Origin: Posidonia oceanica
Lineage: Eukaryota; Streptophyta; Magnoliopsida; Alismatales; Posidoniaceae
NCBI GenBank assembly: GCA_037176725.1
Contig: JAZBRS010000011.1
Coordinates: forward strand, 5,270,001-5,334,000
Direction of reading: 5' to 3'
DNA: 64,000 nt
Made by a program: the position numbers and the translations under genes. Below are positions 1,736 to 62,385 of this stretch, piece by piece (position 1 is the first letter of the stretch; each line of letters starts with the position of its first letter). The notes under the pieces were generated by a model. That model saw nothing but the letters and a program-made list of their open reading frames with translations, was not told the DNA's origin and ran no database searches.

Positions 1736-2108
1736 TGTAGTAGCTTATTCAGAGTATATTGAATAGAACATAAAGAAACATGGAAAAACACTTACCCGAG
1801 GGGTTTGATCCCCCCGGTTGCAACTAATGGAAATGAATATGCTTTGCTATACTACGAAATTAAAAATATGATATGAGAAAAGAAAAACTAAAGAGAGCCC
1901 CCTTTTTATCTATGCACAGAATGCAAGATGTGTCGACATGATGTCACTGACGACAGAGGAAGAGTCAAGCTCTTCTCTTTCTCGGGATCCCCTTTCTCAA
2001 AACTCTCTCAAAATTTGATTTCTCTCTCTAGGAATCTCTCCATTATTTTTTCACTTCTCAAAAATCTGTCCTCCTCCAAAAACATCCGTCCTTGATCCTG
2101 TAAGGGTA

Positions 2109-2132
2109 CCCCTGCTTTTATAGAAGCAGGGG
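2109..2132 (-). promoter_or_regulatory. TATA box inside a perfect 9-bp inverted repeat
   Basis: Arms CCCCTGCTT (2109-2117) and AAGCAGGGG (2124-2132) are perfect complements. Together with the bases between them they contain TATAAAA when read on the minus strand. The position inside the LTR suits its promoter. Confidence 0.55.
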
Positions 2133-2186
2133 AGGAACAAAAAAGGAATTGAATGACCAGATCAGCAAACTTTCCAATTCAGGAGT

Positions 2187-2501
2187 GTTATACGCTGGAA
2201 AACCAGTGCATAATGTTATAAGCTGGAATCCCAGCGTATAACGACCTCTGAGGTACAGCTGCCAGGATAAAGGAATATTCCCTAATTAAAACTTGATTAA
2301 GTGTCATTAAACTAGTGTTAATTGCCTTGACCAGTCAACAGAGTCTAAAGATGGTAAAAACACAGATTTCGTACTTGGCCAAATAAAGAAAGTTTGTAGC
2401 TGGCACTGAGCTTCCATGTTAGACGCTAGAAAACCAGCGGCCAACGTTAGCCGCTGGAAAACCAGCGACCAACGTTATAAGCTGGGAATCCAGCGTATAA
2501 C
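2187..2501. repeat. Five 28-nt hairpin units in two clusters
   Basis: Units lie at 2187-2214, 2215-2242, 2418-2445, 2446-2473 and 2474-2501. Each is exactly 28 nt and follows the plan GTTxxxCGC-N10-GCGxxxAAC, with the best consensus arms GTTATACGC and GCGTATAAC and a loop close to TGGAAAACCA. Units follow each other head to tail with no spacer. Since a unit is nearly its own reverse complement, a pair is also a larger palindrome centred on AAC|GTT. The same plan with another core is found at 14664-16829. Confidence 0.75.
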
Positions 2502-2719
2502 GCCCTCAGACAGTACAACTTCCAAATTTAGTCAAGAAATGAAGGACATTCAAGTTATTGACACTTAAAGCTTAATAAGGGATGAAAATAATGTTTTGAA
2601 CTGGAGAATAGGTGTTTGGCTCAAGTGAGATGTCTTGGATTGAGCAAAGAGCTTCTAGAGACGACCTAATGCAATAGACTACACTACCATGAAGGGAGTG
2701 CCAAAATAGGGTATCTACA

Positions 2720-4030: not shown

Positions 4031-5103
4031 CACAATAGAACAAAAGCAAGATTCAGAGTTTATTACAAACAGGGTGCAAGTAGGAACAAATACAGGCAAG
4101 GCATACAGTGGCATTGACGGAAAACAACATACAAAGAGCAGAACGAAGAGAACAGTAAGCAGAAAACAAAGAGCAATATTTTTCATGGCATATAGGCATA
4201 CGAGCAACATTTCACATGGCATACAGAGCATTATTACAGGGTTCATGCAGTGAAGAAACAGGCTGTAAACTCCTAGAATTTGCTTAATCAGGCATTAGCA
4301 CTATTAATCAAACAACAAACAGGGGATTTCATGCAAATTCGGTCGTTGCTATGGATAATCAATGTAGACACAGCAAATCACGGTTATTAGGATGCCACCA
4401 CAATACCTTGTCAGGTTGCAAAATCCATGAACAACCAGTAAATCACGGTGTAAAGGAAAATTACAGAAAAGTCCCTACAATTTATCAGAATATCAAAACC
4501 TCCTCAGATTGATACCAGAACCACTCAGAGTGTTTTCTAGGCAGAGGACTCAACCGCAACACCCATCAGTTGCCCTCAGGGCAAGCAGAATCGCCATGTA
4601 CCCTCAGTTGGGAAATTTGCACTGATGCCCTTATCTTTCTGTGAAACTACAGAATGCCCCCTACAATGCTCTGAGCAGCTACGGACATGCCCATGGAATA
4701 CCCCTCAACCAGATATCTCAGTCAGAGTAGGCCACAATCAAGAGGCATTATGTGCCCCATAATTGGGAAAATTGCAGCAGCACCCCCTGCATTTGGCATA
4801 ACTTTACAATTGCCCCTATCAGATCAGAGGCTGCAGATTTGCCCCATAGAAGCAGAAGAGCAACCGCAATTCCTCCTCCAGCTTTGCAGAGCTACAGTAC
4901 ACTCCATCACCTTTCTGACTTGGTAGAAATGGCAAACCGCCCTACATAACCGCATAGAAGCCGCAGATTGCCCCTTGAGGCAATGCAGTCGCAGATCACC
5001 AGCTCAACACTCTGGAGCACGCTCGTTGCCAGGATCCTTCTGCCCGGGCTAACATCCCAAACTGTCATGGGACCATCTACGAACCTCTGCCATACCTCTA
5101 TGT
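4031..5103. other. Non-coding stretch upstream of the PMD pseudogene
   Basis: No coding region can be supported. From about 4420 to 4960 the sequence has a loose periodic phrase on the plus strand (TTTGCCCC, ATGCCCCC, ATTGCCCC with short spacers). This is the reverse-complement counterpart of the GGGGCA phrase at 10320-10860, which lies at the same place relative to the second PMD copy. It is probably the degenerate 5' region of the accessory gene. Confidence 0.45.
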
Positions 5104-5245
5104 TTGGTATTCCCGTCATCTCTTTGCGGTTGGTATGTCCGAAACTTACCACATCGTGCCCTTTTTGCAGTCGGTAGGTCTGAAACTTACCATAACTCAT
5201 CTCCTGCTGTGGTTGGTAAGTCCGAAACTTACCAGTTCTCCTCTT
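5104..5245 (+). repeat. Three hairpins of the form GGTAAG-TCCGAAA-CTTACC
   Basis: Three units follow one another: near 5129 (GGTATGTCCGAAACTTACC), near 5174 (GGTAGGTCTGAAACTTACC) and near 5214 (GGTAAGTCCGAAACTTACC). The last has a perfect 6-bp stem and the loop TCCGAAA. The loop matches hairpins in the tail of the element at 28-54 kb (GATGATCCGAAACTCATC). Confidence 0.6.
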
Positions 5246-5262
5246 TTGCACGACTTCCCTCT

Positions 5263-6180
5263 AGGTGGACGAAGTCCTGCTTGCTTGTTTCCTCGTTCCG
5301 GGCGGACAAGGTCCTTTTTACTCCCTTTCGCGTGACTTCGCACTGGATGGACAAAGTCCTGCTTGCTTGCTTCCTCGGGCCGGTTGAATGAGGACAAGTT
5401 TGCCTTTCACGTGACTTCACTTCGGGCAGACGAAGTTCCACTTGCTTGCTTCCTCGTGCCGGTCGAATGAGAACAAGTTTGCCTTTTGCGTGACTTTGCT
5501 CCGGGTGGATGAAGTCCTGCTTGCTTGCTTCCTCGTGCCAGTCAAATGAGGACAAGTTTGCTTTTGCGTGACTTTGCTCTAGGCAGACGAAGTCCTGCTT
5601 GCTTGCTTCCTCGTGCCGGTTGGACGAGGACAAGTTTGCTTTCGCATGACTTCGCTCCAAGCAGACGAAGTTCTGCATGCTTGCATCCTTATGCCGGTCG
5701 AACGAGGACAAGTTTGCTTTAGCATGACTTCGCTCTGGGTGGATGAAGTCCTACTTGCTTGCTTCCTCGTGCCTGTCAGACGAGGACAAGTTTGCTTTTG
5801 CGTGACTTCATTCCAAGTGGACAAAGTCTTGCTTGCTTGCTTCCTCATTGCAGTCGGACGAGGACAAGCTTGCCTCTCTTGTGACTTTGCTCCTGGCGGA
5901 CGAAGTCCTGCTTGCTTGTTTCCTCGTGCTGGTCGGACAAGGACAAGTTTGCCTTTTGCGTGACTTCGCTTCGAGGGGACAAAGTCCTGCTTGCTTGCTT
6001 CCTCATGCTGGTCAGACGAGGACAAGCTTGCCTCTCTTGTTGCTTCGCTCTGGGCAGACGAATTCCCACTTGCTTGCCTCCTCGTGCTAGTCGAACAAGG
6101 ACAAGCTTGCCTCCTCTCTTGCGACTTCGCTCCAGGCAGACGAAGTTCTGCTTGCCTTGGTTTCCTGTGCCAGACAGATG
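5263..6180 (+). repeat. 78-80-bp tandem array, about 12 copies, in a Tat 3' tail
   Basis: The phrase GACGAAGTCCTGCTTGCTTG recurs about every 78-80 bp at roughly 5265, 5345, 5427, 5507, 5585, 5663, 5741, 5819, 5897, 5976, 6055 and 6136. Each unit holds two hairpins: GACTTCG...CGAAGTC (11-nt loop, spanning the junction between units) and CCTCGT...ACGAGG (9-nt loop). The first hairpin is present once at the equivalent place in two other elements (48303-48327 and 61237-61269), so the array looks like its local amplification. Long open frames across this array are a by-product of the repeat and not evidence of coding. Confidence 0.85.
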
Positions 6181-6883
6181 AGGACCAGTTTGCCGCCTTT
6201 CTGCTCGGGCTGGTAGCCCTAACTGCTAGGTAGACAACCGTCAAAATGTCTGCTCAGGCTAGTACCCCTAAATACCCAGATGACACCCGTCAAGCTGTCT
6301 AGCCTTCTTCTCGGTGCCTGGAGCATTTTGGCTACCCCCAGGTATCTTTCTCCTGATACCAAGGGCATCTTTTTCGCTCCCCTATGGTATCACGCTCTCT
6401 TCTTTTGGGTTGGTAGCCCTAGCTACTCAGAGGGCAAGCATGCTAGTCTTGTCTAGCGCCCCTCTTCGCACAAGTTTGGATTAGCTACCAACTTGTCGCC
6501 CGACACTGCATTGCATCTCATTTGCATCTCATAGCACCACATTGCATCACATAACATCTCATTGTACGACATCGCATCCGTTAGCACGCAACATACTACA
6601 TCATCGCACCAGCATTACATGCTAGGTAGCCGCGTTGACATCGCACACCCCGCATGTGCTCCCAGCAGAGCATTAGCACGTATTTCATCATCGCGAAGAG
6701 CCACGCAGGGTTCAGTGCGCAGCATGCATCACCCACACTCACCCCCAGTAGAGCTTAGTGCGCAAGGCATTAGCATTTGCACCCGCATTTGCATCTCGGC
6801 TGCATCACTCTCCTCAGGAGGGGTGTCTTGTCAATCCTAAGCAGCGGTCTTGGTTCCCTTGGCCTCTTTCTTGGAGGGTCATC
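6181..6883 (+). other. 3' non-coding tail of a Tat-type element (plus)
   Basis: This holds the conserved tail words: repeats of the GGTAGCCCTAACTGCTAGG type (about 6208-6303), a degenerate copy of the CCCCTGGTATCA hairpin (about 6336-6367), CA-rich runs with many ATTGCATC words (6500-6800), GGGGTGTCTTGTCAA (from 6820) and a polypurine-like stretch ending at 6883. The same order is seen before each of the other four LTR starts of this superfamily in the window. The 39-nt hairpin seen in the four other tails is not recognisable here. Confidence 0.7.
6871..6883 (+). other. Polypurine tract (weak)
   Basis: TTGGAGGGTCATC directly precedes the LTR start TGTAGACACCC. Intact counterparts in this window read AGGGAGGGGCATC. 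It primes plus-strand DNA synthesis in LTR elements. Confidence 0.6.
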
Positions 6884-14434: not shown

Positions 14435-17400
14435 TGTAGACATCCCATTCTAACAGTCCGGAAGTTGGTTGCTTTCTCCTACAGGTTCGTGTGGACTCTG
14501 AAATGGCACTCATTTTGACCTAACCCTTTTCTACCCCCAAAATCTAGCCTAAAACCTTACCTAAACCCCAAGCCCTCAACCCAAGCCTTTTTACACCTTT
14601 TTAAACCCTTCTAGCCCAAGCCCAAGTCCATTTGCAGCCTTTTGCCAATTGAGTTTGTTGTACGTTGGAATAGGCAGCGTCCAACGTTGGACGCGCCCTG
14701 TGCTAGCGTCCAACGTTGGACGCCTTCTGCTCCGACGTCCAACGACTCGGTTGCAGCAGTGGCTGCTCCGCCCCCTCCAGCTCACCTCCCGTCCAATCCA
14801 CCGCCCTCCTGCACTTACTACCTGTCCCCTCTTGCCCTCCAGGTCATCCACTACCTTCCAATGTTGAGTTACTACCCTTGCAACCCATCATTTCCATCTC
14901 AGCCAGAATTCCACTCTCTCCGCCCTCACAACCTTCAGCCGCCCTTGTCAGCCACCACCGTGACTTTGTCGGCCATCTGACATGCCCCTGCCACACTCCT
15001 GATATTCCTCGTACACCCCATACACTCAGAATCCTCTGCCTCCACCTGCCAAGCCTGCCAATTCCCCTTTGATCCGCTGCCATCTGCACCAGAACCTAAG
15101 CAACCCATGCACAAAACCAGCACCAAACAGCCTCCTTCACAAGCACGCACAGACCAGCACAGCCCTCCCTTTGGCAATTTGATCCCTCCGGAGCGAAGAC
15201 CAAGTATCCACCTTCCTCCCGGACCCTTCACTGACCTCTCCCGTGCTTCCAACAGCCCGCAAGACCTCGCCGGAGTCAGCTCTGCCACCACTTCCACAAC
15301 GCCAGTGAAGGAGGTCGACATGCCGCTCCAGGCCGCAACCAGGTAGGTTCTCTATCCCCGTAGCTCATGCATGCTAGGTTGAATGCTTCCATGCACTTTC
15401 TTGAAGTTTTGAATCCTTTTGGCCGCGATTTGTGGCCAGAAGGAAGTTCAGTGTGTTGGACGCACCAGCTGGTGCATCCAACGTTGGACGCGGCATAGGC
15501 CAGCATCCAACACCCTGCTTTCCTTTGCTTTTGTTCTGATGCTTTCCATACTCTACTGTTGGTTTGCTTCTGTGAGTTTGTGTTGCATGCCTCCTTTACA
15601 AGCTTTCAGATGCCATACCATGCCTACTTCTCTGTTTGGATCCATGCCTAAATCCTTTTGCATGCTTTAAGTCTGTTTGATATCTGCCTGCGTTGGACGC
15701 CTGGGTGAGCCGCGTCCAACGTTGGACGCTGGTTCACCCAGTGTCCAACATGCTCTGTTAGCTTTACTTTGTTGCCATGCTTGCACCTTGCCTCTTTTTG
15801 ATGCTTATTCATGCTCCATGCTTGCTTAATGATTCCTGGCCTCTATGGCAACCATGCTTAGGATTGTTAGCCTCCTCTTAAGTTGCATGTTATTTCTTTT
15901 AGTCTTTTTATCTTTTATTCCCATGCATGTTCTTCCTTTCTTGCTTTCCTTGATTTGCATGCTTGCTATGAATGTTTCTTTTTGCTCTGACATGTCTTAG
16001 TAGTTTGCATGCATATAGGTGGGATTTAGAGCTGAGCTCCCCCTTAGCACAGGTGGGTTTGCATGCTGCAGTCGTTGGACGCCAGAGGCTTCAACGTCCA
16101 ACGTTGGACACTGCTGTCTCCAACGTCTAACGTCCCTGCCCCTCTGTTTTGTTGTTTAAAGCTTGCATGATGCTCTGATCTATTTGCTTGCATGTCTCCT
16201 GTGTTTCCATGCATGCTTAGCTTTCTCTGCAATTATTCCATGGCTTCTTTAGATCATATGCTTTTTTATGCAAGTTCTTGTGTGTTTGTGCCTCCCAGGG
16301 CGTTGTACGCTGCTGGTGCAGGCGTCCAACATTGGACGCTGGCTCAGCTCGCGTCTAACATCCTGGTTGTGCTTCATGCCTGGCACAGGTTGCAGATGGT
16401 AAGTTTTTGATTTTTTGATTGATCCCATGCTTGTATGCTCAGTCTGTGCTTGTCTCCAGTAGCCCAAATGCATGTTCCTATTTTTGTTCGTTATTTGTAT
16501 GCTTTTTTCTTTTGTTTCTCTTTGGCCTATGTTGGACGCCTATCTCTCTGGCGTCTAACGTTGGACGCCATGCTCACGGACGTCCAACAGCCTGCTTGCT
16601 CTGATCCTTGATCCTAGCTTGCCCCTTGCTCTGATTCCTCTTCTGATCTTCTGTCAGGTTAGTCCTGCATGTCATGCACCCATCTAGTTGCATTTCTGCA
16701 TCTACATTGCATCCATGTAGCTAGAATGTATCATTTTTTAAAAGATTGCATGCTGTCAGCCTCCAGCAAGTGTTGGACGCCAGCAATGGCAGCGTCCAAC
16801 GTTGGACGCTGCTATTGCCAGCGTCCAATGCTTGTAGTTGGCTTGACTTGGTTTTAAAACGCTGATTTGTTTCGTTCGCCGATTTCCACGTTTTATTGCT
16901 CCTAATACCTACTGCTACCCCTATGCATGCTGCCTAACCCTTGCATTGTTTTTCGCACCTTGCATTGTTTTCTGTGCCTTGCATCGTTTTCCACGCCTTG
17001 CATCGTTTTCTGCACCTTGCATCGTTTTCCACACTTTCGCACCATTTTCCGCGCTCGCTTTGGTTTATCTCTTGCATGTCGTTTGCATTGCCTGATTTTT
17101 CCCTCAGTTTTGTTTTATCGCCTGCATCTGCATTAGGGCTATGATGCTTACTGCCTAGGAGTTCTCACGAACCAGGGTTCGCCCAGTTCGGAATACTAGC
17201 AGCGTTGCTGAGCACATAGATAGCACCTTTATTTCCCATGCATAGCAGGTAGACATTCATGGCATTTAGGCATTAGGCTAGCATTTCCCTGCATTAGCGC
17301 GAGATTGCCTAAGAAAGACCGACTCTCGGACGTATCAGGGTGCCTAATACCTTCCCCGTGCGTAACAGAAGTCCTTGCCCTTTCTCTTTATCCTTTCCTT

Positions 17401-17698
17401 TATCCTAGGCATGAGTCATAGCATAGCATAGCATAGCTTAGCATTGCATCCCTTTGCCCCCTCTTTGCATCCAGTTTTGCATGTCTTTTCATGCTTTACC
17501 TTCGGTTTTCCCTGTCTTCCAATTCAATAGACCTGGTGGCGACTCCGATTTGTCTTATCATTTTCTTTTTCTTCTTTTTGCCAGCGTTTTCGAGTGAAGT
17601 TTCTTCCCTTGATCCTGCCACATATAGTGAGCCTATTTTGATCGATGCACGTGAGCTTTGGTATCTTGCATGGACGATCAGAATTTAGGATTACTACA
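14435..17698 (+). mobile_element. Solo Tat-type LTR, 3264 bp, with hairpin units
   Basis: It starts TGTAGACATCCCATTC, ends GGATTACTACA and is flanked by CTAAG on both sides. No internal region is present, so this is a solo LTR left by recombination between two LTRs. It carries 14 complete 28-29-nt hairpin units (14686-16829), a donor-like CAG|GTAGGT (about 15342), a short array of TTGCATCGTTTTCC-type units (16940-17060) and the conserved 3' block (about 17145-17698) with AACCAGGGTTCGCC, CCTAATACCTTCCCC, GTAACAGAAGTCC and an inner PBS-like word TGGCGACTCCG (17537-17547). Confidence 0.92.
14664..16829. repeat. Fourteen 28-29-nt hairpin units GTTGGACGC-N11-GCGTCCAAC
   Basis: Complete units: 14686-14714, 14715-14743, 15455-15482, 15483-15511, 15692-15720, 15721-15749, 16074-16102, 16103-16131, 16302-16330, 16331-16359, 16531-16559, 16560-16588, 16772-16800 and 16801-16829, plus a 22-nt remnant at 14664-14685. 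All are 29 nt except 15455-15482 (28 nt). Arms are 9 nt and nearly constant; the 11-nt loops differ. Units come as head-to-tail pairs, so the join makes the 18-nt palindrome GCGTCCAACGTTGGACGC. In two pairs (15692-15749 and 16772-16829) the second loop is nearly the reverse complement of the first, giving a palindrome of about 58 bp. Later pairs start about 228-241 bp apart (16074, 16302, 16531, 16772). Confidence 0.9.
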
Positions 17699-19572: not shown

Positions 19573-20373
19573 GATGCCCCTCCCTGAGCGAGGTCAAGCG
19601 TAGCGAGACCGTGGCTCAGGATTGACAAGACACCCCTCCTAACGCCAATGGGAGGCTGGTCTTGCTGTTGGCGTGAGTCGCTTATTCGGTGGATATACCG
19701 AAAATCGTGACTCGCTGCCCCAATGCAAATGTTGATGCAGACTCTACTGCAAATGCTAATGAAACGCATGCTGATGTGGAGCACGCGGTGCTGATGAAAA
19801 TGCATGCTGATGCTGAGCATGCGGTGTTGATGAAAATGCATGCGCTGCTGATGATAATGCTGATGCTGAGCATGCGATGCTATGAGATGCAATGCCATGC
19901 AATGCGATACATTGCGACAAGTTGGCGGCTAATCCAAACTTGCACACAAAAAAGGGCACCAGACAAGACTAACGTGCTTGCCGTTCGGGCAGTTAGGGCT
20001 ACGAGCCTAGAGGAGGACTCCAGACAAGACTATCGTGCTTGCTGCTTGCGTCGCCAGACACTTTAACTAATGTCATCCGGGCAGTTAGGGCTGCCATCCC
20101 GGAGGAGATGAGGGCATGATACCAAAGGTAGCGGAAAAGATGCCCCTAGTATCAGGCTGATGATACTAGGGGGCGGCTGGAACGCTCTTGGCATTGGGAA
20201 AGAACGCCAGACAGTTTGATGGGTGTCATCCGGGCAGTTAGGGCTACGAGCCCGACAGACATTTTGACGGTTGTCGACTGGGTAGTTAGGGCTTCCAGTC
20301 CAAAGGAGAAAAGGGGCTAGACAGTATGACAGGTGTCAATCGAGCAGTTAGGGCTGCTAGCCCGAACAAAGGG
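19573..20373 (-). other. 3' tail of the minus-strand gag-only Tat element
   Basis: Read towards the LTR on the minus strand, it holds hairpin words of the type GGCAG-TTAGGG-CTGCC (about 20079-20094) and AGCAG-TTAGGG-CTGCT (about 20343-20358), the hairpin with arms CCCCTAGTATCA and TGATACTAGGGG (20143-20172), ATGCTGATGC-type runs (19735-19880), the 39-nt hairpin (19675-19713), GACACCCC (19629-19636) and the polypurine tract (19573-19585). No coding region is seen. Confidence 0.75.
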
Positions 20374-34092: not shown

Positions 34093-34102
34093 TGGCGACT
34101 CC
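34093..34102 (+). other. Primer-binding site for tRNA-Arg
   Basis: TGGCGACTCC starts two bases after the LTR end. It is complementary to the 3' end of a plant tRNA-Arg (GGAGTCG plus CCA), the primer typical of Ogre/Tat elements. The match ends after 10 bases; further bases (ACTATGG) diverge from the usual longer site. Confidence 0.85.
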
Positions 34103-43794: not shown

Positions 43795-45148
43795 CCTGGA
43801 GCAACCATTGCAGATCCTTCTTCTCTGTCCCACCTCTTGTACTCCCACCCCTTGCACGCTTCCGTCCCTCTTTTCGTCCTATCTCCCCCATCTTTACCCC
43901 TGTACATCTTCATACATCACTTCTCCCTATCCTCTACATTTTTGTCACTGCATTCCCATATGTTCCGTCCTTTATCTCTTTTATAATCATCATCGTCATC
44001 CTCTTAAATCATGCATTGCATATTGCCCAGTGATGAAAACCGGAAGTGCTTGCCTGCTATGGAAGGAGTCTCCCGACCTCACCTGACACTACTTAGATGT
44101 CTTAACTAGTGAGGGAGCCAACACTCAGTAAGCAGGCGAAATGCCCAAACACTTAGGGACTTACACTCCTAGAAAAATGCTAGGCGTTAGCCAGAAGAGA
44201 ACACATGTCTAGGCCTAGATGCACAAGAAAAGGAAAAAAAAAGGAGAGAGTCAAAGTTCACACCCGAAGATCCTATCCCCCATGTCTCAAAAAGCCAGCA
44301 CCCATTTCCTCTAGGGTAGGGATAGTGGAGACCTACAAGCTTGAAAAAAAAAAAAAAAAAGAGGAGAAAGAGAGAAGGAAAGAAGAAAAGAAAAAGAAAA
44401 AAAGAGAATGATAGAAAAGAAAGAAAAGAGACTGATAGAAAAGAAAAAAAGGAAAAGCAAAAGTCAACTCCAAAAATGAAGGCAAGCAGAGTAATCCCGC
44501 ACCTTTCACCTACCCCAGAGAAGAGTCAAAAGTCAAGCCAGGTCCTCCTTGTCTCGAAGACAGGGATGGGGAGAGCCCTGCACCCCTATATAGAAGCAAA
44601 AGAGACAAGAAAAAGGAAAAGAGCAGGTGTAAGTCCTTAAGAGTTTGGCATGTAGCTTGTCCTCTCTACACCACCACCAAACATCACCAGCACCCTTTCC
44701 TAGAGTGCCACCAACAAGTTAGGAATCTGAGTAGAGTCCAGTGAGTCAAGGATCGCTACCTTCCTATACAGCAGGTACCAAAGCACTCCGTATGCTGAGG
44801 GCAAACCACACCAATCATCTCCTCTCCCTCTAATCATTCCGCCTTGCAAGACTTGCTCCAGCATTGAGGCAGTACTCCTACTCAGCACGCGTTGGCATCA
44901 TCGAGTTACGCTAGTCCAGAACTCCTGCCAGTCCCCGCCCCCGTGCCAACAGAATCCCCCACTTATATGTGCTTAATTGCTATGTTCTGATTGTTTACTA
45001 CTGAATATGTTGAACTACTTTACCAGCTTCAGAATTTGCTTTCAGTCAGTGATTATGTGCCTGTATGAAATTTGATGATTTACAGTCTTGGTAATAGGTA
45101 CCTGAAGATTCTGCAGTAGCTATTTGCCTACATTCTGCGGTCTACGGG
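43795..45148 (+). other. Non-coding spacer between pol and the accessory ORF
   Basis: C/T-rich to 44020, then purine-rich with a run of 18 A (44344-44361) and AAGAAAAG words (44340-44470). Two diverged phrases with GTCTCRAARAC...GGGATRG recur near 44286-44330 and 44550-44575. The part 44050-44930 resembles 26130-26700 on the minus strand. No coding region is supported. Confidence 0.5.
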
Positions 45149-46341
45149 ATGGGTTTCCCTACTCTAGTGACCCCAACGCACTGCTTTGAGACCCTGCGAG
45201 AGTGGATCGGCAAGCTTACCAAAGAAGACTACGAAAATCTGCGCCTATGGGGCATTCCAACCAAGCTGCTGAAGGCTGCTGATGTAGAAGTGAGTTGCCA
45301 TCTTCTGTGCGCCGCTGCAAGGTTCTGGAAATCGACGCACCACGTATTCTACTTTGGCAGAACTGAACTGACACCCACACTGGAAGAAGTGCGCCGGATC
45401 TACGGCTTCTCCAAGATCATGGGACCGCCTGTCTTCATGAGGCGTGATGGATACATTGTAGTCCTGAGCCAACTGACTGGGCTCTCTACTCGAAGCTGCC
45501 AGCAAAGACTGATCTGTACCAACGAGCCCACGCCCCTGCTTCGCCTAGCATACTTTGATGATACTATGGGAAAGCGCGCTGAACTTGGAGATGAGCTGTG
45601 GCTCCGAGAATTTGTCACCCATTTCCTAGGCGAGCTAGTCTTTACTCATGGTCGACTGACAATAGCCATCAAGATCGCTGAAATAGCACTTGTTGTGGTG
45701 ACCCGGTAGATAGACCTGGCACCGATTGTTCTGGCAGAGACATATCGCGGGCTGGACCGCATCTCACATCGCTACCACCACTTTCATGGCTACGGAGCAC
45801 TTATACAAGTCTAGCTAGCCACACACTTAGAGGTGGACCTTCTGCACCTCTAGGTGCATGCTTATGAAGCCTACTGCAACAATGGCCATGCCAAGACAAT
45901 CAAAAGTGTTAAGGAAGAATACGAGAAGCTATCAGAGTTGACGGATGACGCAGTAACCTGGCGTATCATCCCCTCCACAGCCGAACCATTCACTGTCTTC
46001 TTCAGCACATGCGACATGCGGCTGATTGTGCTACCAGGATTCACTGCGGGTGTGGAATACCACCCTATCAGGGTCATGCGCCAGTTTGGCTTCTGGCAGG
46101 GCTCCTTCATTGACAGCACAGCATCTAAGCTTCTTCAGACATATCCCCTCAGTACAACTGCTGCAACAAAGGAGCTGGCCAATCTGATGCAGCATGGAGT
46201 GCGATCAATAGACATCGTGCTGTGAGAGGCATAGGATGCACCCCTGAGTACGTAACCGAGGTGCAAGAGCTCTGGCCCATCAATGAAATCCCGCCAGGCG
46301 GCCCCTTGTTCCCTAACTCTAGGAAGTCAAAGAAGGCCTGA
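45149..46341 (+). pseudogene. Accessory ORF downstream of pol, PMD/DUF7745-like, sense orientation
   Basis: The frame starts MGFPTLVTPTHCFETLREWI at 45149 and contains SCHLLCAAARFWKSTHHVFY, then FGRTELTPTLEEVRRIYGF, the pattern of the DUF7745/PMD-like group. It continues LIVLPGFTAGVEYHPIRVMR, FGFWQGSF and LANLMQHGVRSIDIVL. With one frame change near 46240-46255 it goes on EYVTEVQELWPINEIPPGGP and ends at 46341 in a basic tail. In-frame stops are TAG at 45707, 45812, 45851 and 46232 and TGA at 46223. It is encoded in the same direction as pol, whereas the two PMD copies at the left of the window are antisense to their elements. Extra ORFs at this place are known for Tat elements; the function is unknown. 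Confidence 0.72.
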
Positions 46342-46850: not shown

Positions 46851-48280
46851 CGTCATCTTATCAATCAATCACCTTTTCCGACTGATGGCCGTTAAACATC
46901 ACCTTTTCGGCTGATGGCCATTAAGCATCGCCCTTCCGGCTGATGGCCGTTAAACATCCCTTCTGGCTGATGGCCGTTAAACATCGCTTCCGATTGATAG
47001 GACCGTAAACTATCGCTTCCGGTTGATGAGCATTAAGCATCACTTCCTGGCTGAAAAGTCCGACATCTTATCAATTCTTTCCTCTTCGGCTGATGATCCG
47101 AAACTCATCACTCTTTCAGCTGATATCTAGTAACTATCACTCACAACTGCACTTTCCGGTTGATAGGACCGTAAACTATCACTTCCGGTTGATAGGACCG
47201 TAAACTATCGCTTCCGGTTGATAGGACCGGAAACTATCACTCTTCGGTTGATGATCCGAAACTCATCGCTCTTTGGCTGATATCCAAAACTATCACCTGC
47301 AGTTGTGTTTTCCAACTGATATCCAGTAACTATCACTCGCAATCACCCTTTTCGATTGATAGGACCGTAAACTATCGCTTCTGGTTGATGGCCGTTAAAC
47401 ATCCCTTCTGGCTGATGGCCGTTAAACATCGCTTCCGATTGATAGGACCGTAAACTATCGCTTCCGGTTGATGACCATTAAGCATCACTTCCTGGCTGAA
47501 AAGTCCGACATCTTATCAATTCTTTCCTCTTCGGCTGATGATTCGAAACTCATCACTCTTTCGGCTGATATCTAGTAACTATCACTCACAACTGCACTTT
47601 CCGATTGATAGGACCGTAAACTATCGCTTCCGGTTGATAGGACCGTAAACTATCGCTTCCGGTTGATAGGACCGGAAACTATCACTCTTCGGCTGATGAT
47701 CCGAAACTCATCGCTCTTTGGCTGATATCCAAAACTATCACCTGCAGTTGTGTTTTCCAGCTGATATCCAGTAACTATCACTCGCAATCGCCCTTTCCGA
47801 TTGATAGGACCGTAAACTATCGCTTCCGGTTGATAGGATCGTAAACTATCGCTTCCGGTTGATAGGACCGTAAACTATCGCCTCCGGTTGATAGGACCGT
47901 AAACTATCGCTTCCCGTTGATAGGACCGTAAACTATCTTTCTTCGACTGATATCCAAAACTATCGCGGGCATTTGCATTTTCCAGCTGATATCCAGTAAC
48001 TATCACTCATGATTGCGCTTCCGGTTGATAGGACTGTAAACTATCGCTTCCAGTTGATAGGACCGTAAACTATCGCTTCCAATTGATAGGACCATAAACT
48101 ATCGCTCTCCGGCTGATATCCGAAACTATCTTGCGCAATCATGTTTTCCAGCTGATATCCAGTAACTATCACTCTTTCTGGTTGATAGGACCGTAAACTA
48201 TCGCTTTCAGTTGATAGGACTGTAAACTATCATTCTCGGCTGATGATCCGAAACTCATCCCCTCTGATCGAGAAGTCCGA
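46839..48280 (+). repeat. Hairpin-unit array, consensus GGTTGATAGGACCGTAAACTATC
   Basis: About 45-50 short hairpins follow one another. The commonest is GATAG-GACCGTAAA-CTATC with a 29-bp period where it is regular (47155-47240, 47800-47935). Others: GATG-GCCGTTAAA-CATC, TGATGA-TCCGAAAC-TCATCA, GATAAG-TCCGTCAT-CTTATC and GATA-TCCAGTAAC-TATC. A higher-order block of about 470-480 bp seems duplicated (compare 46990-47350 with 47440-47810). Stems differ between types but pair within each; loops share CCGTAAA or TCCGAAA. Confidence 0.85.
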
Positions 48281-60733: not shown

Positions 60734-61300
60734 GATGCCCCTCCCTGAGCGAGGGCAAGCGGAGTGCGGCCGCTGCTCAGGGTTGACAAGACACCCCATC
60801 TGACCGGCGGGAGCAGCGGGTTGCTATGGGCGTGAGCTACTTATTCGGCGGATGCACCGAAGATCGTAGCCCGTTGCCACAATGCAAGATGCCAGTGCAG
60901 ATGGATGCTGTGCTATGTGTATGCATGCTGATGCAAATGCCATGCAAGAATTAGTATAAAAGTTAGTGCAGCTATAGGAAAATGCTGATGCTGTGCAAGT
61001 GATACTGATGATGCTAATGTGATATGCAGTGCTAACTAAGAGAGTGCTGAGATGATGGAGAAAAACTGATAAAAAGGCGCGATGTGGTGCGAATATCTGG
61101 CAGGGAGGCCAGACTTGCACGACAAAGCGAAGGAATACAGGGTGCAGCTGGTCCCCGCCCAGGGAGCAAGCTAGCAGAGAGGAGAGAAAGGGGCGCGAGG
61201 GGAGAGAGGCCAACTCTCCTATCGCAGAAAGGGGGTGCGTGACCTCGTCTTCCTGGGACAAGGTCACGCCGAAAAGGAAAAAAAAAATGATAAGGTGACG
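60734..61300 (-). other. 3' tail of the inverted element, next to its LTR
   Basis: It contains the polypurine tract (60734-60746), GACACCCC (60790-60797, inverted copy of the LTR start), the 39-nt hairpin (60834-60872; outer arms GAGCTAC and GTAGCCC, inner arms TTCGG and CCGAA), ATGCTGATGC-type runs, and a hairpin with 9-bp arms GCGTGACCT and AGGTCACGC (61237-61269). The last is the counterpart of 48303-48327. Confidence 0.75.
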
Positions 61301-62385
61301 GGCTTATCGTCCGGATAGTTTACGGTCCTATCAACCGGGAGTGACAGTTTACGGTCCTGTCAACCGGAGGCAGTTGTGAGTGATAGTTACTGGATATCAG
61401 CCGTATAACATGGTTGTGGGATAGTTTACAGTCCTATCAACTGGCGGATAGTTTACAGACCTATCAACTGGAGGATAGTTTACAGACCTATCAACTGGAG
61501 CGACAGTTTACGGTCCTGTCAACCGGCAGCCACAAACCATGAGGGATAGTTACTGGATATCAGCTGTATAACGCAATGCCGGATAGTTTACAGTCTATCA
61601 TCTAGAGCGACAGTTTACGGTCCTATCAACCGGCGGATAGTTTACAGACCTATCAACTGGAGGATAGTTTACAGTCCTATCAACTGGAAACGGCATTGCG
61701 AGGGACAGTTACTGGATGTCAGCCGTATAACATGATTGCGCGTGGTAGTTTACAGTCCTACCAACTGGCGGATAGTTTACAGACCTATCAACTGGAGTGA
61801 CAGTTTACGGTCCTGTCAACCGACGGATAGTTTACAGACCTATCAACTGGAAACGCGCAATGATGAGGGATAGTTACTGGATATCAGCCGTATAATGCAA
61901 TTGCGGGTGATAGTTTAGGAGTATCAGCCTAACGACAGTTTACGGTCCTGTCAACCGGTGGATAGTTTACAGACCTATCAACTGGAGGATAGTTTACAGT
62001 CCTATCAACTGGAAACCGCAATTGCAAGGGACAGTTACTGGATGTCAGCCGTATAACGTAATTGCACGCGATAGTTTAGGAGTATCAGCCTAACGACAGT
62101 TTACGGTCCTGTCAACCGGTGGATAGTTTACAGACCTATCAACTGGAAAAGTGCAATTACGAGGGACAGTTACTGGATGTCAGCCGTATAACACAACTGC
62201 GGGCCGACCATGGATCGACCAGAAGATAGTTTAGGATTATCAGCCTGAGATAGTTTCGGATATCAGCCTAGCACGAGTGATTGATAGATGATAGTTTAGG
62301 AATATCAGCCTGAGATAGTTTCGGATATCAGCCTAGCACGAGTGATTGATTGATTGATAAGAGGAGGCAAGATCATGATGAGAAT
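61301..62385 (-). repeat. Hairpin-unit array with co-varying stems
   Basis: Plus-strand units read GATAG-TTTACAGAC-CTATC, GATAG-TTTACGGTC-CTATC, TGACAG-TTTACGGTC-CTGTCA (about 61332, 61497, 61799) and TGGTAG-TTTACAGTC-CTACCA (about 61743). They are mixed with GATAGTTACTGGATATCAGCC and GATAGTTTCGGATATCAGCC. The reverse complement gives the GATAGGACCGTAAACTATC hairpins of 46839-48280, so this is the same satellite family in an independent, differently arranged array. Confidence 0.85.

Follow-up and report, generated by a model that had tools for sequence, protein, structure and literature searches.

Split palindromes with near-fixed half-site spacing at very high copy number in Ty3/gypsy long terminal repeats of Posidonia oceanica

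Introduction

The 64,000-nucleotide (nt) stretch of Posidonia oceanica DNA analyzed here (assembly GCA_037176725.1, contig JAZBRS010000011.1, positions 5,270,001 to 5,334,000 of the forward strand; "the window" in the following) contains a solo long terminal repeat (LTR) with a series of short hairpin-like units, each consisting of two inverted 9-nt arms around a loop of 10 or 11 nt. What keeps the arms and their spacing alike while the loops vary? An initial annotation had proposed selection or a copying process acting on the hairpin itself (a protein-binding palindrome, a source of small RNAs, or a replication or recombination product). We conclude that the units are split palindromes with near-fixed half-site spacing which are under DNA-level constraint and occur in Ty3/gypsy LTRs at very high copy number; this is the strongest statement that the evidence bears. 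Among the three options of the annotation, the protein-binding palindrome appears best supported, and the units are probably fixed-spacing binding sites for a dimeric protein in LTR regulatory regions.

Results

Units in the window and in the host genome

As annotated, the window LTR contained 14 complete units (14686-16829; Table 1), 13 of which are 29 nt long; the other one (15455-15482) has 28 nt. Six of the seven proposed head-to-tail pairs were recovered, with the last four starting 228, 229, and 241 bp apart as described. The first cluster proved to be a triple, which includes a degenerate fifteenth unit of 29 nt at 14657-14685 and hence starts at 14657 instead of 14664. Searching the window for the 29-nt pattern with up to three mismatches gave 14 matches, compared to 0.02 expected from shuffles. 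Relative to GTTGGACGC/GCGTCCAAC, 14 of 252 positions were changed in the 28 arms of the complete units, and both arms were exact in just 3 of the 14. Thirteen of these 14 changes were C-to-T or G-to-A, which is the pattern of cytosine deamination. Mean likeness among the six pairs was 80-96% for arms, 25-35% for loops, and 34-38% for 20-nt flanks. While the arms were thus indeed nearly constant, fully free loops had to be rejected: in the 13 units of 29 nt, loop ends favored TGG...CCA (41/78 positions versus 20.6 in shuffles). Covariation within the loops was nevertheless weak.

A search of the 2.96-Gb host genome with the arm pattern, in which all counts are lower bounds, returned at least 96,618 units with exact arms and a gap of 9-13 nt; the reversed control had no match. 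At least 13,952 exact-arm units had a gap of exactly 10 nt, and at least 728 had a gap of 12-30 nt. Sister arms (GTTATACGC) were found at least 4,203 times. For closer analysis we used 29 records (the window and 28 loci; 292,816 nt), with loci chosen around exact units or their neighbors and not at random; the sampled loci hold many more units that differ from the exact arms by a base or two. Near-exact units, in which no more than one position other than arm positions 4-5 was changed, were 28 nt (63 units), 29 nt (118), or, in a single case, 35 nt long. No near-exact unit of any other length between 22 and 37 nt was found in the 29 records, and the reversed sequence yielded none. Loop length was steadier than predicted from the rate of insertions and deletions in the spacers, with P values of 0.0017, 0.036, or 0.17 depending on the gap penalty. 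The 204 clusters comprised 127 pairs, 62 single units (which may be pairs with one decayed unit), 14 triples, and 1 quadruple. Further arm classes were seen in 28-29-nt units at L029 236-523 and L016 9334-9559, namely, GTAAGACGC..GCGTCTTAC and GTTAGTCGC..GCGTCTATC, the latter not symmetric.

Arms, loops, and spacers in related LTRs

Three sampled loci (L025, L026, and L017) carry copies of the window LTR with like termini. Compared to the window in this order, arm identity was 0.91, 0.90, and 0.85 (i.e., the arms differ by 9-15%), in contrast to 0.73, 0.72, and 0.54 for loops and 0.73, 0.74, and 0.49 for spacers. In L025 and L026, BLAST pieces that covered multiple units together with their spacers showed 73-75% identity overall. 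Elsewhere in the LTR, identity to the three copies was 0.78-0.79 for the head and 0.59-0.63 for the G+C-rich block. The loops therefore drift like the spacers and the arms do not. Arm decay equal to that of flanking sequence, which the annotation would have taken as a sign that the constancy in the window is chance, was thus not observed in this sample.

The units also stood out in CpG content, with an observed-to-expected ratio of 1.03 inside units versus 0.44 in their 150-nt flanks across the 29 records. Within 15512-16771 of the window the ratio was 0.02 for spacers and 0.95 for units; spacers of L026, L025, and L017 had ratios of 0.13, 0.13, and 0.29, compared to 0.90, 0.82, and 0.64 for their units.

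Dyad symmetry and DNA- versus RNA-level constraint

Arm positions 4-5 had been left out of unit picking and could therefore be used to assess covariation between the arms. Both positions were symmetric in 120 of 174 distinct units, compared to 84.5 after permutation (maximum, 106). Symmetric combinations other than GG occurred in 24 of the 174 units, versus 4.6 in permutations (maximum, 13).

As a rival explanation, the units might be kept for RNA hairpins, either as structured LTR transcripts with roles in packaging, dimerization, or splicing or as a source of small RNAs, the latter having been proposed for the palindromes of maize Sirevirus LTRs. All nine clusters analyzed folded far better than shuffles (z, -4.0 to -11.0), which is to be expected of any palindrome. 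Small RNAs are in excess on palindrome clusters of maize Sirevirus LTRs (PMC10760457). Moreover, the outermost loop bases paired more often than predicted from column composition, both in 29-nt units (80/145 versus 65.5; p 0.001) and in 28-nt units (25/50 versus 18.7; p 0.035). However, sliding by one or two positions gave a similar excess in the 29-nt units, and inner loop positions showed no clear pairing beyond column make-up. Hairpins tolerate changes of the loop, whereas the distance between the half-sites is near-fixed, and conservation covers the sequence and not pairing alone. Selection on RNA would further be expected to spare changes that retain a G-U pair. With units oriented by their LTR (intervals were set by hand, and L014 was oriented by likeness to L015 and L021), broken pairs in the sense RNA were G-U in 97 and A-C in 80 cases in the first family, that of the window LTR (p 0.23), and G-U in 25 and A-C in 34 cases in a second LTR family described below (p 0.30). 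G-U-keeping changes were thus not significantly more common than pair-breaking ones, which speaks against selection for an RNA hairpin, and we consider this explanation unlikely. A protein dimer accounts more readily than a hairpin for half-sites held at a near-fixed distance around freely varying loops.

Duplication, copying, and mobility of the units

Alternatively, the units might have no function, with some form of copying (template switching during reverse transcription or replication, correction of quasi-palindromes, or gene conversion) maintaining the likeness of their arms and tandem duplication multiplying their pairs. Old tandem blocks are indeed present in the window. Local alignment against shuffles revealed little homology among the spacers; their collinear alignment against rotations ruled out that they are mutually unrelated. 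Five of 21 comparisons beat every rotation, most clearly those among the spacers starting at 15512, 16132, and 16589, which are collinear relatives (rotation control z, 4.2, 4.4, and 2.9). Judged from sequence, the window pairs have spread at least partly via old tandem duplication of ~235-bp blocks.

In addition, the arms of all units can anneal with each other, and two window pairs form near-palindromes 58 nt in length, as the initial annotation had pointed out: the loops of 15692/15721 and 16772/16801 are near reverse complements, with 9 and 8 Watson-Crick matches over 11 positions (an offset of one being allowed). Across the seven window clusters, complementarity of partner loops was higher than after permutation (p 0.0008 to 0.027, depending on measure and pairing; 0.053 by another measure), mostly owing to these two pairs. 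Without the two near-palindromic pairs, p was 0.033 with G-U pairs counted and 0.13 without. Correction within pairs should, however, generate reverse-complementary partner loops, and a complementarity of 0.8 was reached in just 2 of 154 distinct pairs, as compared to about 2 expected from a background of 1.4%. The 58-nt palindrome was thus rejected as a general property and as the selected object. Mean partner-loop complementarity was 0.464 versus 0.401, and direct similarity was raised at least as much (0.490 versus 0.396). Homogenization would also leave unexplained that different arm classes coexist unmerged in one LTR and that units are placed before a TATA box (see below). A copying process without function is therefore improbable. 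With G-U changes not favored and reverse-complementary loops not general, the idea that selection or copying acts on the hairpin itself was not borne out.

We also considered that the units are small mobile hairpin elements inserted into LTRs, similar to the double-hairpin elements of mitochondria, a named class with reported mobility. Two adjacent hairpins are the most common cluster state here, too (127/204). Yet copying of the arms did not extend to the loops, whose mean identity between the six window pairs was 0.25 and 0.35; since the loops differ, whole units have not been copied between pairs. Furthermore, LTR positions of the units agree between L025, L026, and the window, distances from LTR start to first unit are similar in 23 of 26 copies, and some spacers are related to each other. 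A mobile element copied as a whole was rejected on account of loops unrelated between pairs and positions common to LTR copies, and insertion of small mobile hairpins into the LTRs appears very improbable.

A second LTR family with units upstream of a TATA box

A second LTR-like region on the minus strand of the window, in which 28-nt units precede a TATA box (Table 1), has relatives at six loci, plus L035 and L037-L040. In all 13 copies of this family the TATA box was located downstream of the units. It (TATAAAAG) started 54-65 nt past the last unit in 11 copies and 93-94 nt past it in the other two, namely, L035 and L024; in the latter, a further unit of more degenerate sequence follows. Near one place before the TATA box, arms were of the AT type in the window, L025, and L031, of the GG type in L024, and of the GA type in L028 (degenerate elsewhere). 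LTR starts of the TGTAGACACCC type were located in 23 of 26 copies of both families and not found in the other 3. The first unit followed the LTR start after 190-241 nt in the first family (13 copies, 3 of them under 200 nt) and, in 10 copies of the second family, after 159 nt (4 copies) or 208-218 nt (6 copies).

The second family is tentatively grouped with the window family by its LTR start and by L020 alone, in which TGGCGACTCC is found at 4422, 75 nt past the tail match. Its TATA box lies inside a hairpin of its own (CCCCTGCTTCTATAAAAGCAGGGG, 2109-2132, minus strand) that is largely kept in 12 further copies. Units were also observed some hundred nt past the matched LTR part (L040 2614-2697 and L031 1164-2390), perhaps in the leader of the element.

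The host element

The 3' 660 bp of the window solo LTR share about 72% identity with the 3' parts of three other plus-strand LTRs of the window, two of them being parts of a full element close by (28138-54766). This element encodes gag and has reverse transcriptase before integrase, i.e., the gypsy order. A primer site (GTGGCGACTCC) directly follows the LTR copies in L017 and L026 and is shared by the full element, and TGGCGACTCC-type primer sites lie right behind LTR ends at 34093, L017 6681, and L026 4053. From the domain order of the related full element and the primer site next to the LTR, the host of the units is assigned to Ty3/gypsy, more precisely to a group that we take to be Tat-like. 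An open reading frame (ORF) behind the integrase of the full element (45098-45709) gave a subthreshold match to the plant mobile domain (24.6 bits; cutoff, 34.9). No Pfam match at 0.001 was obtained for two ORFs located past the LTR copies of L017 and L026.

A primer-site-like GGTGGCGACTC is present at 17535-17546, ~160 nt inside the LTR end; it is exact in 5 of 6 aligned ends, with one change in the sixth. In LTRs with this internal copy, the true end, where seen, is then followed by another TGGCGACTCC. CAG/GTAGGT at 15342 and a pyrimidine tract ending in CAG at about 17586 resemble splice sites and would make pairs 2-7 intronic; of the six aligned LTR ends, five have an AG behind this tract.

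Table 1. Unit-bearing LTRs and associated features of the window
Feature	Position	Strand	Remarks
Solo LTR (3264 bp) holding the units	14435..17698	+	Starts TGTAGACATCCC, ends ATTACTACA; 5-bp CTAAG duplication on both sides
First cluster, triple of 29-nt units (14657, 14686, 14715)	14657..14743	+	
G+C-rich stretch without units, between clusters 1 and 2	14744..15454	+	GC 0.57; recognizable in L017, L025, and L026 at 67-69% identity
Pair 2, units of 28 and 29 nt	15455..15511	+	
Five spacers between pairs 2-7	15512..16771	+	1 CpG in about 1030 nt
Pair 3, two 29-nt units	15692..15749	+	Loops near reverse complements
Pair 4	16074..16131	+	
Pair 5	16302..16359	+	
Pair 6	16531..16588	+	
Pair 7, two 29-nt units	16772..16829	+	Loops near reverse complements
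Second LTR-like region	1738..2719	-	Start TGTAGATACCC at 2719; 1738 is a guess for the 3' end
Triple of 28-nt units	2418..2501	-	Left arms GTTATACGC, GTTGGTCGC, GTTGGCCGC
Pair of 28-nt units	2187..2242	-	GTTATACGC-type arms; ends 64 nt before TATA box
TATA box	2116..2122	-	TATAAAA within CTATAAAAGC; downstream of units

Other hairpins in the window

Arrays of ~29-nt hairpins with the reverse design were noticed at 46876-48244 and about 61270-62200. Here the loop (GACCGTAAA) is near-constant and the stems vary two-sidedly (GATAG/CTATC, GACAG/CTGTC, TGGTAG/CTACCA, and TGATGA/TCATCA). A 79-bp array at 5127-6194 contains, by eye, two hairpins per repeat, with arms near GACTTCG/CGAAGTC and TCCTCG/CGAGGA; hairpins such as TGGTAAGT-CCGAA-ACTTACCA lie upstream of it. 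Four separate hairpins at 20143, 46731, 63228, and 63937 have near-alike arms (CCCCTAGTATCA, CCCCTGGTATCA, and CCCCTGGTGTC types) and short variable loops.

Discussion

According to the explanation that we favor, a dimeric protein, either of the host or encoded by the element, would bind to a pair of 9-nt half-sites in inverted orientation, GTTGGACGC or a sister such as GTTATACGC, which sit across a 10- or 11-bp gap, equivalent to about one helical turn. Head-to-tail pairing would provide four half-sites within 56-58 bp. By binding and acting as a dimer, we infer, the protein would drive or protect transcription of the LTR.

Several observations weigh against this explanation. A protein binding the units is neither known nor was one found. 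Conservation of the arms does not exceed that of the LTR tail, whose identity to L025, L026, and L017 is 0.86. The comparison of orthologous units comprises three copies, and its alignment may be anchored by the conserved arms. L017 had no BLAST match to LTR positions 941-2095; its units there may thus not be orthologous, and its low values may reflect lost homology. Units were picked via near-exact half-sites, which favors conservation of both CpG and arms; with a looser pick (up to 3 changes, lengths of 20-39 nt), 236 units were obtained, of which 53 had 28 nt, 172 had 29 nt, and 11 had other lengths (21, 22, 27, and 38 nt). Arm CpG sites were kept in 23/33 (L017), 22/25 (L025), and 25/31 (L026) cases, compared to 22/35, 23/34, and 24/34 in the conserved tail, which is a modest excess. 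The two-sided changes represent fewer independent events than units, because copies share ancestry. In the window LTR the outer right arm was altered in 7/7 pairs, versus 6/21 other arms (p 0.0014; 14735-16829), an asymmetry not predicted by a fully symmetric site. Finally, no TATA box was found in the family of the window LTR (0/11 copies, in a scan that began at the first listed unit and ended 700 nt beyond the final one), and six of the seven window clusters are concentrated within 1.4 kb downstream of a possibly transcribed G+C-rich block. For these two reasons it is solely the analogy with the second family that suggests a promoter role.

A more far-reaching version would regard the units as the target half of an anti-silencing or self-activation system of Ty3/gypsy elements. 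Here the dimeric protein, element-encoded or a captured host regulator, would bind the split palindromes, keep local CpGs unmethylated, and have codiverged with its targets into the arm classes GTTGGACGC, GTTATACGC, GTTGTACGC, GTTAAACGC, and GTAAGACGC. This proposal draws on analogy, and we would not expect it to hold; if it did, retrotransposons would possess an equivalent of VANC proteins and their motifs.

With at least 96,618 exact copies, the units constitute candidate binding sites of very high frequency in a single plant genome. Should the binding protein come from the host, its sites would have been spread through the genome by retrotransposons; should it be element encoded, a new anti-silencing or activation system would be at hand. 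Free loops, decayed spacers, and alternative arm classes give the arrays built-in controls, so that the question of what binds them becomes directly testable.

The annotation had known of no precedent. In the part of the open-license literature covered, no title on such units in Ty3/gypsy LTRs was found, and titles matched by words of the unit sequence appeared unrelated as judged by title. Bacterial and archaeal contigs yielded none with the 18-bp core. Viral contigs gave 3 stretches with the core and 5 with a unit, at one place each, which we took as chance. Mitochondrial double-hairpin elements likewise consist of two adjacent hairpins; those are reportedly mobile, whereas the units have different loops and inherited LTR positions.

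VANDALs are DNA transposons. The target motifs of their VANC proteins in Arabidopsis resemble the units in being short and dense in the noncoding parts of one transposon group, in having spread by tandem repeats, and in falling into classes that differ between related elements (PMC5735166, PMC10398659). VANC binding is accompanied by local CG hypomethylation (PMC5735166, PMC10398659). In contrast to the units, which are inverted pairs, VANC21 motifs are arrayed in one orientation, and no cognate protein is known for the units.

The closest analogue, which answers the presumed lack of a precedent, is found in the LTRs of Sireviruses (Ty1/copia). Their repeated motifs (RMs) are palindromes that occupy the upper LTR half and precede a TATA box (PMC2829016). 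Like the units, RMs show dyad symmetry, are numerous (3-14 per 3' LTR, compared to 15 in the window LTR), and are associated with CpG-rich stretches (PMC2829016). RMs are clustered from about 200 nt into the LTR before a conserved cTATA-type box, the cluster starting 200-400 bp after the LTR start (PMC2829016); the first unit lies 159-241 nt from the LTR starts located here, and a TATA box follows the units in the second family but was not found in the first. The RM of Usier, GTCGGACGTCCGAC, even has a GGAC..GTCC core in common with the units (PMC2829016). The CACCGGACNNNGTCCGGTG palindromes of maize Copia LTRs are also clustered in cis-regulatory LTR regions, where a conflict between regulation and silencing has been proposed (PMC10760457); small RNAs map there, whereas our units showed no RNA-level constraint in the G-U comparison. 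However, a CGG-CCG core, described for all RMs but one, is absent from the units with their GTTGGACGC or GTTATACGC half-sites, and the RM consensus has no gap or one of a few bases, unlike the 10-11-bp gap of the units. The units, moreover, occur mostly in head-to-tail pairs, form several arm classes with two-sided changes, and reach about 97,000 exact-arm copies in the one genome searched. They thus work like Sirevirus RMs without being members of that group, as both the superfamily (Ty3/gypsy instead of Ty1/copia) and the CGG-CCG core differ. Arrays of palindromic LTR motifs, known from Ty1/copia Sireviruses, are hence present in Ty3/gypsy elements as well, where their geometry differs in being split.

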